Virus record (IMG/VR): IMGVR_UViG_3300048839_001888
Coordinates: 1 to 46,840 of that record
From: a virus
Strand: one strand, 5' to 3'
DNA length: 46,840 nucleotides
Positions within the stretch are counted from its first letter, which is position 1. Every line of letters begins with the position of its first letter. Both the position numbers and the translations under genes were made by a program. Below, piece by piece: positions 18,484 to 22,052 of the stretch. The notes below the pieces were generated by a model that saw only the letters and a program-made list of their open reading frames with translations, had not been told where the DNA came from and searched no databases.

Positions 18484-18790
18484 CCCTGTCGGCTTGGCTA
18501 GGCTGGGTGAGGCATGGCGGGGCGATGGCCCGGCAAGGCAGGCGAGGCCCGTTCCGTTTAGGCAAGGCGTGGCGAGGTTAGGCGAGGCGGGGCAGGCTTG
18601 GCGCGGCGGGGCAAGGTGTGTCCGATGTGTGGCGTGGCAGGCATGGCGCGCTGCGTCAGGGTCTGGCATGGCGAGGTTAGGCGGGGCTGGGTACGGCAGG
18701 CGAGGCTTGGCGAGTTCTGGCGGGGCCTGGCACGGCGGGGCTTGGCGAGTCGAGGTGCCTTCCGCCTCTTTCTTCTCTTCCTTTCGGGAC
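18484..18790 (+). repeat. G-rich degenerate repeat block, noncoding
   Basis: About 300 bases between two genes are made of short, imperfect units such as GGCGAGGC, GGCATGGC, GGCTTGGC and GGTTAGGC, repeating every 5 to 10 bases. The plus strand is strongly G-rich with very few runs of C, an asymmetry seen nowhere else here. A frame is open through it, but its translation is repetitive (alternating AWRG/GEAW) and is probably an artefact. The block could form G-rich secondary structure, act as a transcript-processing or recombination site, or be a remnant of repeat expansion. Confidence 0.65.
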
Positions 18791-18801
18791 GCTCTTTCAA
18801 C

Positions 18802-20058
18802 ATGACCGATCTTCGTTTCCAGCCCTCCGCGATCGAGCACTGGCCGATCGAGCGGCTCGTTCCCTATGCGGCGAATGCCCGGACCCACAGCGCGGAGCAG
18901 GTCGTCCAACTGGCGGCAAGCTTGGCCCGCTTCGGGTGGACGGTGCCGGTCATGGTCGACGAGAAGGGCGTGCTCATCGCCGGCCACGGCCGGCTGCTGG
19001 CCGCCCGCCATCTCGGACTCAAGGAGGTGCCGGTCATCCGGCTCCACCACCTTGGGGAGGCGGATGCCCGGGCTTACCGTCTGGCCGACAACAGGCTGGG
19101 AGAACTATCGACCTGGGATGACGAACTGCTCGCCGCCGAACTCTCCTGGCTGCAGGAGGAGGGTCTCGATCTTGACGTCATCGGGTTTTCCGACGAGGAC
19201 CTGGAGCGGCTGCTGGCCGGGGATGTCGGCGACGGTCCCATGGACGGCGACGAGGATGCTGTCCCGGAGCCGCCCGCCGATCCCGTCACCAAGCCGGGCG
19301 ATCTCTGGCTGCTCGGGTCCCATCGCCTGCTCTGCGGCGACGCCACGGTGCTGGCCGATGTTGAGAAGGTACTCGGCGGGAACTCGGCGGACATGTGCTT
19401 CACCGACAGCCCCTACAATATCAACTATCACGCGCCCCGGAACGGGGCCAAGGACCGCCGCATCCTCAACGACGCCCTGGGCGAGGGCTTCGCGGCTTTC
19501 CTTTACGACGCCTGCATCAACATCCTCGCCGTCACCAAGGGCGCGGTCTACATGTGCATGTCGTCTTCCGAACTGCACACATTGCAAAAAGCTTTCGTCG
19601 CGGCCGGCGGCCATTGGTCGACCTTCGTCATCTGGGCCAAGAACACCTTCACGCTCGGGCGGTCCGATTACCAGCGCCAGTACGAGCCGATCCTCTACGG
19701 CTGGAAGGAGGGCGGAGCGCACCACTGGTGCGGTGCCCGTGACCAGGGCGACGTGTGGTTCGTGGACAAGCCGGCGCGCAACGACCTGCATCCCACCATG
19801 AAGCCGGTGGACCTGGTGGAACGGGCGCTGCGCAATTCGTCGAAGAGCCGCGACATCGTGCTCGATCCCTTCTGCGGCTCGGGGACCACCCTGATCGCCG
19901 CCGAGACCACGAGCCGTGTCTGCCTCGGCATCGAGATCGATCCTCGCTACTGCGATGTCATCGTCAATCGCTGGCAGAACCTTACCGGCGGCACCGCCAC
20001 CCTGGAAGGGGACGGGCGGACGTTCAATGAGATCGCGGCCCTCAAGCCCGCCGCCTGA
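18802..20058 (+). CDS. ParB-domain DNA methyltransferase
   Basis: This 418-residue protein has an N-terminal ParB/Srx-like nuclease domain (LVPYAANARTHS, then VLIAGHGRLLAARHLG with the GHGR motif and ADNRLGE) followed by an N6-adenine or N4-cytosine methyltransferase. The MTase shows TDSPYNINYH as motif IV (DSPY instead of the usual DPPY) and DPFCGSGTTLIAAE as motif I (AdoMet binding), in beta-class order. It probably methylates phage DNA to evade host restriction. The start at 18802 is the first residue of the conserved domain; its ribosome-binding site is weak. It opens the modification gene cluster. Confidence 0.93.
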   Translation: MTDLRFQPSAIEHWPIERLVPYAANARTHSAEQVVQLAASLARFGWTVPVMVDEKGVLIAGHGRLLAARHLGLKEVPVIRLHHLGEADARAYRLADNRLGELSTWDDELLAAELSWLQEEGLDLDVIGFSDEDLERLLAGDVGDGPMDGDEDAVPEPPADPVTKPGDLWLLGSHRLLCGDATVLADVEKVLGGNSADMCFTDSPYNINYHAPRNGAKDRRILNDALGEGFAAFLYDACINILAVTKGAVYMCMSSSELHTLQKAFVAAGGHWSTFVIWAKNTFTLGRSDYQRQYEPILYGWKEGGAHHWCGARDQGDVWFVDKPARNDLHPTMKPVDLVERALRNSSKSRDIVLDPFCGSGTTLIAAETTSRVCLGIEIDPRYCDVIVNRWQNLTGGTATLEGDGRTFNEIAALKPAA

Positions 20059-20069
20059 CGGAGCCCCCC

Positions 20070-21116
20070 TTGCATGACCTGGCTCTACATCCCGCCCGCG
20101 GTGCTGGCGGCGGAGACCCTTTGCTCGGGCTTTCCCTCTGCTCCGGCGCCGGAGGCCTCGACCTCGGCCTCCACATCGCCGAGCCCGGATACCGTGCTGT
20201 GGGCTATGTCGAGCGGGACGCCTTCGCGGCGGCCGTGCTCGTGGCCCGGATGGAAGAGGCGGCCCTGGCGCCGGCTCCTGTCTGGGACGACCTTGGAACC
20301 TTCGACGGCCGCCCGTGGCGTGGCGCGGTGGGCGTCCTCCTGGCGGGCTATCCTTGTCAACCATTTAGCATCGCCGGCAAGCGACGCGGCACCAGCGACC
20401 CCCGCCACCTCTGGCCCCATGTCGCCCGCGTCATCGGCGAATGCCAACCCCGATTTGTTTTCCTGGAGAACGTCCCCCACCATCTCCACCTCGGTTATCG
20501 CGAGGTCCGAGGCGAGCTGGAAGGCATGGGTTACCGGGTTGCGGAAGGACTCTTCTCGGCGGAGGAAATTGGCGCACCCCACCGGCGGGAACGGTTGTTC
20601 GTGCTTGGCCTGGCCGACGCCCCGGGCCTGCTCGGGCCTGCGCTCCAGCGGTGCCAACCGGGCGGAGATGCTGCGCCTCTGGCCGACGCCCCTGGCCTCG
20701 GACGGCGAGAAGCCGAGCGGCGGCAACCGTCGCAACGCCGACCTGACGGGCAGCGCGCGGCGCTGGGCCACCCCCTCGGCGCGGGACTGGCGGAGCGGCC
20801 GGGCCAGCCCGGCGACGCTGGCCCGCAACAGCCGGCCCCTGAACGAGCAGGCGGTCAGTCGGTCGCCGGGAACTTCCGGGAACCTGCCTTCCCTCCCGGA
20901 CCCGGCGACGCCGAGGGCTGGCGGGAATACCTGCGCTGGAGACCGGACGCTGAACCCGCTGTTCGTCGAGGCCCTGATGGGCTGGCCGCCGGGCTGGACG
21001 GACCCCGAGCCCTCCGCTGGCGGGTCGACCGCCTGCGGCTCTGCGGCAACGGCGTGGTCCCGCTGGCTGCGGCGCATGCGTGGCGAACTCTCAAGGCTCG
21101 GCTGGGAGTCCCCTGA
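20070..21116 (+). CDS. DNA (cytosine-5) methyltransferase, in a frame that overlaps another long frame
   Basis: This 348-residue frame has the C5-MTase motifs in order: LSLCSGAGGLDLGL (motif I, AdoMet), GYPCQPFSIAGKRRG (motif IV with catalytic Cys near residue 96), FLENV (motif VI), PHRRERLFVLG (motif VIII-like), and LRLCGNGVVPLAAAHAW near the end (motif X). It starts with TTG at 20070, six bases after GGAG at 20060-20063; there is no in-frame ATG before motif I. The central part (about residues 190-290) is low-complexity in this frame and poor in G/C third positions, and it overlaps completely with the frame starting at 20074. I consider it a real enzyme for self-methylation of phage DNA. 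Confidence 0.75.
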   Translation: MHDLALHPARGAGGGDPLLGLSLCSGAGGLDLGLHIAEPGYRAVGYVERDAFAAAVLVARMEEAALAPAPVWDDLGTFDGRPWRGAVGVLLAGYPCQPFSIAGKRRGTSDPRHLWPHVARVIGECQPRFVFLENVPHHLHLGYREVRGELEGMGYRVAEGLFSAEEIGAPHRRERLFVLGLADAPGLLGPALQRCQPGGDAAPLADAPGLGRREAERRQPSQRRPDGQRAALGHPLGAGLAERPGQPGDAGPQQPAPERAGGQSVAGNFREPAFPPGPGDAEGWREYLRWRPDAEPAVRRGPDGLAAGLDGPRALRWRVDRLRLCGNGVVPLAAAHAWRTLKARLGVP

Positions 21117-21120
21117 ATGA
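20074..21120 (+). CDS. Second long frame overlapping the cytosine methyltransferase (WPTP-type phage protein)
   Basis: This 348-residue frame, offset +1 from the methyltransferase, starts with ATG at 20074 four bases after the TTG of that gene and ends in an ATGA overlap with the next gene. It begins MTWLYIPPA and later has LWPTPLASDGEKPSGGNRR, RRWATPSARDWRSGR, NSRPLNEQA and LNPLFVEALMGWPPGWTD. I recognise these signatures from a widespread family of phage proteins. Over 20641-20760, 38 of 40 codons in this frame end in G or C, against 27 of 40 in the methyltransferase frame. Both frames therefore look selected. It is either a true overprinted gene or, less likely, reached by frameshifting. 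Confidence 0.5.
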   Translation: MTWLYIPPAVLAAETLCSGFPSAPAPEASTSASTSPSPDTVLWAMSSGTPSRRPCSWPGWKRRPWRRLLSGTTLEPSTAARGVARWASSWRAILVNHLASPASDAAPATPATSGPMSPASSANANPDLFSWRTSPTISTSVIARSEASWKAWVTGLRKDSSRRRKLAHPTGGNGCSCLAWPTPRACSGLRSSGANRAEMLRLWPTPLASDGEKPSGGNRRNADLTGSARRWATPSARDWRSGRASPATLARNSRPLNEQAVSRSPGTSGNLPSLPDPATPRAGGNTCAGDRTLNPLFVEALMGWPPGWTDPEPSAGGSTACGSAATAWSRWLRRMRGELSRLGWESPE

Positions 21121-22052
21121 CCGCCCATGTGCTCAGCTTCTCCGGCGGCAAGGACTCGACCGCCCTCTACCTGCTGGCCATGGAACTGGGCCAGAAGCAC
21201 GGCTTCCCGTTCCTGCCGGTCTTCGCCGATACCGGCAACGAGCATCCCGCCACCCTGGACTATGTCCGCGACCTGCCCGGCCGTACCGGCGGCCCCGCCA
21301 TCCGCTGGGTCAAGGCCGACTTCGCCGGGGATATCGCGAGGAAACGCACCTTCGTCGCCGAACGCTGGCCGGAGCATGGCGTGCCGGCGGAGCGGGTCGC
21401 CCGCGCCCTGGAGGTGCTGCGGCCCACCGGGGTGCCGTTCCTCGATCTCTGTTTGGTCAAGGGACGCTTCCCGTCGCGCCGCGCCCAGTTCTGCACGGGG
21501 GAACTGAAGATCGCCCCGATCATGGAACAGGTCGTCATGCCGCTGCTCGACGCGGGACGGCGCGTCCTGTCCTGGCAGGGGGTACGGGCGACCGAGAGCC
21601 CGGCCCGTGCCCGGCTGGCGAAATTCGAGCATCGGGGAGATGGCTACTGGATCTGGCGGCCCCTGCTGCGATGGACGGCCGATGAGGTCTTCGCCCTGCA
21701 CCGGCGCCACGGCATCGAGCCCAATCCCCTCTACCGGGCCGGCATGCACCGGGTCGGCTGCATGCCCTGCGTCAACTGCCGCAAGGACGAACTGCGCCAG
21801 ATCGCCCGGCGCTACCCCGAGCAGATCGAGCGGATCGCCGAATGGGAGGCCCTGGTCGCCCAGGCCAGCAAGCGGGGCGCCGCCACCTTCTTTCCATCGC
21901 CCACCGCGAACGGACGCGGCCGGGTGCGGGGCGGCCCCGTCCAGCGGCACGTCGCCTGGGCGATGACCGGCCACGGGGGCCGGCAGCTCGACATGCTGCG
22001 GCTGTGCGAGGACGCGACCGCCTGCGCTTCCGCCTACGGGCTCTGCGAATGA
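21117..22052 (+). CDS. PAPS-reductase-like (PP-loop) protein
   Basis: This 311-residue protein has the PP-loop SFSGGKDSTALYL at about residues 7-19, then VFADTGNEHP, and a C-terminal cysteine motif (CMPCVNCRKDELR) that could bind metal or an iron-sulfur cluster. It belongs to the phosphoadenosine phosphosulfate reductase/DndC-like superfamily, members of which act in sulfur metabolism or DNA phosphorothioation. It overlaps the ATGA at the end of the second frame upstream. Its link to two methyltransferases suggests DNA or nucleotide modification, but a true Dnd system is not present, so the reaction is unknown. Confidence 0.85.
   Translation: MTAHVLSFSGGKDSTALYLLAMELGQKHGFPFLPVFADTGNEHPATLDYVRDLPGRTGGPAIRWVKADFAGDIARKRTFVAERWPEHGVPAERVARALEVLRPTGVPFLDLCLVKGRFPSRRAQFCTGELKIAPIMEQVVMPLLDAGRRVLSWQGVRATESPARARLAKFEHRGDGYWIWRPLLRWTADEVFALHRRHGIEPNPLYRAGMHRVGCMPCVNCRKDELRQIARRYPEQIERIAEWEALVAQASKRGAATFFPSPTANGRGRVRGGPVQRHVAWAMTGHGGRQLDMLRLCEDATACASAYGLCE

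Follow-up and report, generated by a model that had tools for sequence, protein, structure and literature searches.

Locus and reading frames

The window, i.e. the whole stretch of 46,840 nucleotides that was analysed, is a viral record with terminase, portal, head, tape-measure and lambda-J-like tail genes. Between positions 20,070 and 21,120, both the ORF listing and the sequence contain two open frames of 348 codons on the same strand, frame 1 starting with TTG and frame 2, in the +1 register, with ATG. Their start codons are 4 nt apart and the shared stretch amounts to about 1,050 bases. The features of this region are the following:

20060..20063, + strand: GGAG, candidate Shine-Dalgarno sequence for both frames (read from the sequence; presumed function)
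20070..21116, + strand: frame 1, putative alpha subunit (348 aa, starting with TTG), a C5-cytosine DNA methyltransferase that has motifs I-VIII and X
20074..21120, + strand: frame 2 (+1), putative beta subunit with WPTP repeats and LNPLFVEALMGWPPGWT, 348 aa, ATG start
20145..20594, + strand: frame-1-constrained block, residues 26-175, motifs I-VIII (substitutions mostly at frame-1 codon position 3)
20670..20894, + strand: frame-2-constrained block, frame-1 residues 201-275, WPTP / presumed target-recognition region (substitution rates)
20895..21044, + strand: frame-1 residues 276-325, with constraint on both frames, holding the frame-2 motif IX-like LNPLFVEALMGWPPGWT
21045..21113, + strand: alpha motif X (GNGVVPLAAAHAW), frame 1 constrained again (substitution rates; invariants G326, N327, G328 and V329)

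The first-pass annotation had described both ORFs, the GGAG and an ATGA junction between the end of frame 2 and the next ORF (ATG 21117), and all of these were found again in the sequence. Its counts of codons with G or C at the third position were reproduced to within one codon: 38/40 in frame 2 vs 26/39 in frame 1 for positions 20641-20760, and 25/30 vs 24/29 for positions 20221-20310.

Upstream, an ORF at 18598-20058 (+) is a fusion of a ParB-like N-terminal domain and an N4/N6 DNA methylase, so that two DNA methyltransferases lie side by side. The downstream ORF, 21117-22052 (+), whose start overlaps the frame-2 stop in the ATGA, belongs to the phosphoadenosine phosphosulfate reductase family. 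An antisense ORF of 629 codons, 20085-21974 (-), lies across the pair, in a GC-rich window that has many long spurious ORFs.

The GGAG is spaced 6 nt from TTG 20070 and 10 nt from ATG 20074, and the motif is not conserved in all relatives. The second codon of frame 1 is CAT, AAT or GAT, ending in T in 97 of 97 distinct ORFs, a count that treats related loci as independent and whose P value is not to be taken literally; elsewhere, NAY codons end in T in 36% of cases. It is this terminal T that creates the frame-2 ATG, and across the same 97 ORFs the amino acid at codon 2 of frame 1 varies while the ATG stays constant. In phage S72, two frame-2 stops lie close to the frame-2 start, so that beta must start internally there.

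Conservation of the second frame

In GC-rich phage DNA, where long spurious ORFs are numerous, frame 2 might be a chance ORF or a side effect of frame-1 codon usage. The window taken alone is compatible with this explanation: when synonymous codons were permuted with the frame-1 protein and codon set kept, 8.7% of the shuffles were also free of frame-2 stops (P=0.087). As this is not beyond chance, the openness of frame 2 in the window was dropped as proof, and it is the comparison of relatives that places frame 2 beyond chance.

Searches of viral contigs returned 58 loci with frame 1 and 80 with frame 2, corresponding to 87 distinct loci, about 55 of which came from frame-1 similarity only; one locus has 44% GC. 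In each of the 87, the open part of frame 2 covers 0.90-1.00 of the match. The same frame is open in six of seven sampled phages of 47-59% GC, which were fetched by frame-1 similarity and provide support largely separate from that of the viral loci. Among loci from bacterial genomes, mainly Alphaproteobacteria, both frames are intact in 78 of 80, a set that had been selected by frame 2.

In 73 aligned loci, no internal frame-2 stop occurs in residues 11-186 (68.5 expected) or in residues 187-336 (30.1 expected), i.e. none in 98.6 expected for residues 11-336 combined, in counts that treat phylogenetically related loci as independent. Over the whole frame-1 ORFs there are 23 frame-2 stops, all outside residues 11-336. 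Frame 3 of the same loci contains 476 stops vs 469 expected in the C half; in the N half it is also depleted (135 vs 268), which indicates that the frame-2 expectation for the N half is inflated and lends the chance explanation some support there. Nevertheless, the relatives do not gather frame-2 stops, among either the 87 or the 73 loci, and the overprinted pair proposed in the first-pass annotation passes this check.

Openness is retained at a base composition at which it is not readily explained by chance. In the shuffle test on the longest frame-2 run, P=0.0005 was obtained for ABMM1 and BUCT711 and P<1/2000 for Mel-JY01, S72 and C75C1, the phages of 47-50% GC each being significant (P<=0.0005); the values are 0.0195 for S9-5 and 0.025 for phPA-G. 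The viral contig of 44% GC (L054) gives P=0.0015, and in Paenibacillus phage Diva the frame-2 run is individually significant (P<1/3000). For the N part alone, the combined Fisher P is about 1e-9 over 11 records that were not chosen on frame 2 and are partly related. Conservation at 44-59% GC, with P<=0.0005 in five such records and P=0.0015 in L054, together with the ATG kept in 97/97, argues against a chance ORF, as do the substitution pattern of the C half and the homology between frame 2 and a portion of single-chain enzymes, both described below. This explanation is therefore regarded as having a practically negligible probability.

A few loci deviate from the common layout. In L101 frame 1 stops early and frame 2 is still open, L213 has one stop in frame 1 and L232 one in frame 2; decay or sequence errors are possible in each case. 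In four further loci (L050, L040, L071 and L115), the copies carry an interruption at an identical position in the two frames, or a duplicated N-terminal part: in L050 about 1.15 kb separates residues 154 and 155, with the same break in both frames, and in L040 and L115 the N-terminal part is duplicated. A search of Rfam gave no intron match in the loci with interrupted copies.

Distribution of selection along the overlap

Substitutions were mapped in 31 close pairs, in bins of 25 residues and frame-1 numbering. In the N half, changes at frame-1 codon positions 1/2/3 number 175/58/700, as expected of a frame-1 gene; residues 26-50 and 76-175 are frame-1-like and residues 51-75 mixed, so that five of the six bins of 26-175 are frame-1-like. 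In the C half the counts are 591/67/184, and the freest position is the third position of frame 2. This is most readily apparent in residues 201-275, where frame-1 position 1, the frame-2 wobble, changes at 0.22-0.26 per codon vs 0.04-0.07 at position 3. Residues 276-300 (0.112/0.097/0.116) and 301-325 (0.071/0.011/0.053) show rates that are low or even at every position, and in residues 326-348, which contain motif X, the pattern is frame-1-like again, with a position-3 rate of 0.181 vs 0.076 and 0.016. The change from frame-1 to frame-2 selection thus falls near residues 176-200.

The amino acids of frame 2 do not drift freely in the C half, where the nonsynonymous/synonymous ratios are 0.07 (NN/NS) and 0.20 (SN/SS); in the N half, SN/SS is 0.94. 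For comparison, phantom +1 frames of neighbouring ORFs gave 0.21-0.31 (NN/NS) and 0.74-1.26 (SN/SS), a rough yardstick since these ORFs were picked mechanically and probably include wrong frames. Taken with this control, the ratios indicate amino-acid constraint on frame 2 in the C half and none that is detectable in the N half. Over the 31 close pairs and 73 aligned loci, the N half of beta therefore avoids stops without detected amino-acid constraint, and it appears to be an extension that is translated yet under weak constraint. In distant pairs compared with codon shuffles, the excess identity of frame 2 is greater than that of frame 3 only in residues 81-186, 276-312 and 313-345, and slightly in 187-275, a result that is hard to interpret because frame 3 is also above the null.

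The first-pass annotation had regarded both frames as selected. This holds for frame 1 in the catalytic part and motif X, for frame 2 in the WPTP part and for both in residues 276-325; it does not extend to frame 2 from end to end. With this partition, the reading as an overprinted pair is supported.

The transition near residues 176-200 is also what would be expected if a programmed +1 frameshift near residue 186 gave a single chimeric protein, with motifs I-VIII encoded in frame 1 and the recognition region and motif IX after them in frame 2; single-chain homologues show precisely this order within one frame. However, beyond the frame-2 block the constraint returns to frame 1 at motif X (326-348), so that a chimera would need two opposite shifts, and the frameshift alternative offered in the first-pass annotation, in its simple one-shift form, does not fit. 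The openness of frame 2 through the whole N half and the conserved ATG would, moreover, be needless for a late shift. The chimera is consequently assigned a very low probability.

The two predicted products as probable parts of one enzyme

The identification of frame 1 as a C5 methyltransferase agrees with the first-pass annotation: residues 21-181 match PF00145 (E=5e-29), the protein matches phrog_363 (E=1e-56), and catalytic motifs I, IV (PCQ), VI (ENV) and VIII are all present. Invariants of the alignment include PCQ, ENV and GNGV, and motif X is found after a variable region, where GNGVV is invariant and constrained in frame 1. The AF2 model of alpha contains a confident catalytic core and a C-terminal helix with little confident structure between them, and is closest to M.HaeIII and M.HhaI (Foldseek E of about 1e-13 to 1e-12 over about 170 columns), a likeness also found by sequence.

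Beta has no match in Pfam or NCBIfam. It matches phrog_1008, labelled DNA methyltransferase, with E=1.4e-21, and other betas match the same family with E=1e-9 to 1e-73. Its invariant residues are W3, N294, P295, F297, M302, P305, G307 and T309, all but W3 within LNPLFVEALMGWPPGWT. The AF2 model of beta alone is poor (mean pLDDT 52.5), and PDB sequences searched with the beta profile yielded nothing meaningful, the best match being MS2 coat protein (E=0.022).

The relation between the two products emerges from Mycobacterium phage Rita gp76, a single-chain actinophage enzyme. In profile comparisons, the frame-1 profile aligns with residues 3-159 of this protein (E=4e-35) and the beta profile with residues 199-352 (E=6e-14); its translation continues into GNGVVPQQA and a short tail at the end, and it is matched by both phrog_363 and phrog_1008. 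The presence of both profiles on one chain indicates that the two frames correspond to consecutive parts of one enzyme. The location of motif IX on the second polypeptide is supported by the homology of beta to the motif IX region of Rita gp76 and by the invariants, and the WPTP/LNP part is assigned to target recognition and motif IX from its position between motifs VIII and X. The protein whose WPTP motifs were named in the first-pass annotation is not an unrelated one but a homologue of the recognition and motif IX part of single-chain phage C5 methyltransferases.

Two independent functions, with alpha a complete methyltransferase and beta a separate protein such as a regulator or an anti-restriction factor, would agree with the lack of Pfam and NCBIfam matches for beta and with its N half, which has no counterpart in the single-chain homologue tested. 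Such an alpha would have to contain its own target-recognition region and motif IX, yet these are absent as judged from the extent of the Pfam match (only profile positions 4-161 of 324, in the first half of the protein), the fold (residues 186-268 and 294-327 have pLDDT <50) and the invariants (none in residues 176-275 of the alignment). The conserved part of beta, furthermore, aligns after motif VIII of the single-chain methyltransferase. Independent functions are accordingly considered highly unlikely. Given the homology of beta to the recognition and motif IX part, alpha and beta are probably two pieces of a single enzyme.

The preferred reading, with a probability of roughly 0.87, is that the locus encodes a two-subunit C5 methyltransferase whose alpha and beta chains come from almost fully overlapping frames. 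Alpha would supply AdoMet binding, catalysis (PCQ, ENV) and motif X, and beta the target-recognition region with the WPTP repeats and motif IX (LNPLFVEALMGWPPGWT). Both chains would be made from one messenger, their two start codons, 4 nt apart, probably being served by one ribosome-binding site. The chains would then associate, presumably as a heterodimer, and methylate phage DNA, most likely as a guard against host restriction. Comparative sequence analysis argues for this reading through the open frames, the retained beta start, the partitioned selection and the occurrence of both parts in one single-chain homologue.

It is conceivable, if rather unlikely, that the N half of beta plays a separate role (e.g., in controlling the amount of alpha or the pairing of the chains), that frame-sharing is kept since recognition changes are tied to an intact catalytic gene, and that the +1 ORF of streptococcal phages, described below, is a relic or a parallel case.

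Annotation and significance

Annotators often retain one frame: alpha in Salmonella phage S9-5 and Acinetobacter phage ABMM1, and beta alone in Alfacinha1 ('cytosine-specific methyltransferase') and phPA-G ('hypothetical'). Many records have no beta subunit or call it 'hypothetical' or 'methyltransferase', and cloning a phage methyltransferase from a single annotated frame would leave out its recognition subunit. Near-complete overlap of two long conserved genes on the same strand is rare; in this case the two would be halves of one enzyme on the same DNA, with selection split between the frames. The family may serve as a large natural data set on the evolution of overlapping frames from single-chain or split enzymes.

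Comparison with known systems

The closest known systems are M.EcoHK31I and gp49/gp50 of Paenibacillus phage Diva. The beta polypeptide of M.EcoHK31I is likewise read from an alternative frame within alpha, and at the present locus, too, the second polypeptide is encoded inside the first in another frame.

According to PMC3404938, two-polypeptide C5 methyltransferases are already known in M.AquI and M.EcoHK31I; the latter (YGGCCR; Lee, Kam, Shaw 1995) is described there with motifs I-VIII and X on the large subunit, motif IX on the smaller polypeptide and the predicted target-recognition domain in the larger subunit. The distribution of motifs I-VIII and X on alpha and IX on beta is the same here, a likeness drawn from the description of that enzyme. 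In contrast to M.EcoHK31I as portrayed there, it is the beta frame that is constrained between motifs VIII and IX; a further difference is that beta starts 4 nt after alpha and equals it in length. This near-total overlap with starts 4 nt apart is the layout of the window locus and of most relatives.

In phage Diva, gp49 and gp50 ('g49 internal gene', both annotated as DNA methyltransferase) form a similarly nested pair in the +1 register. Gp49 matches the frame-1 profile (E=1e-33) and gp50 the frame-2 profile (E=8e-16), the C-terminal end of gp50 consisting of LNPDWVECLMGFPIGWTD and a short tail. The pair differs in having a shorter beta (234 aa), whose start lies 184 nt into alpha.

Rita gp76 combines the alpha catalytic blocks and the beta WPTP/motif IX blocks in one chain and one frame, without a second subunit and with no excess +1 openness (P=0.60); prophiGD91-2 and JKSyngboy are further single-chain forms. 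The split actinophage pairs Catdawg gp6/gp5, Float294 gp62/gp61 and ArV1 067a/067b, which are M.AquI-like, carry the catalytic and recognition blocks on partly overlapping ORFs and have motif X on the second ORF, whereas in the present locus motif X lies in frame 1, on alpha, and the arrangement is thus not of the M.AquI type.

C5 methyltransferases overlapping totally in different frames have been reported for streptococcal phages (the 5093 group and MM1) and Tn5252 (PMC5601072). In the two streptococcal examples checked, phages 5093 (L236:6067-7026) and MM1 (L237:7480-8637), a +1 ORF over the N part is likewise significant, with 143 and 161 codons and P<=0.0007, but motifs IX and X are both read in the frame of the main ORF. 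MM1p15, the only annotated second ORF that was compared, did not match the frame-2 profile. The occurrence of a long +1 ORF in these single-chain enzymes means that openness of the N half alone is not diagnostic of an alpha/beta system.

Beyond M.EcoHK31I and the streptococcal reports, no general description of such overlap was found in the readily accessible literature. Two-part C5 enzymes as such are already known; the new elements are the co-starting, full-length layout, the map of selection and the breadth of occurrence, the selection being unusually clean and the arrangement widespread.
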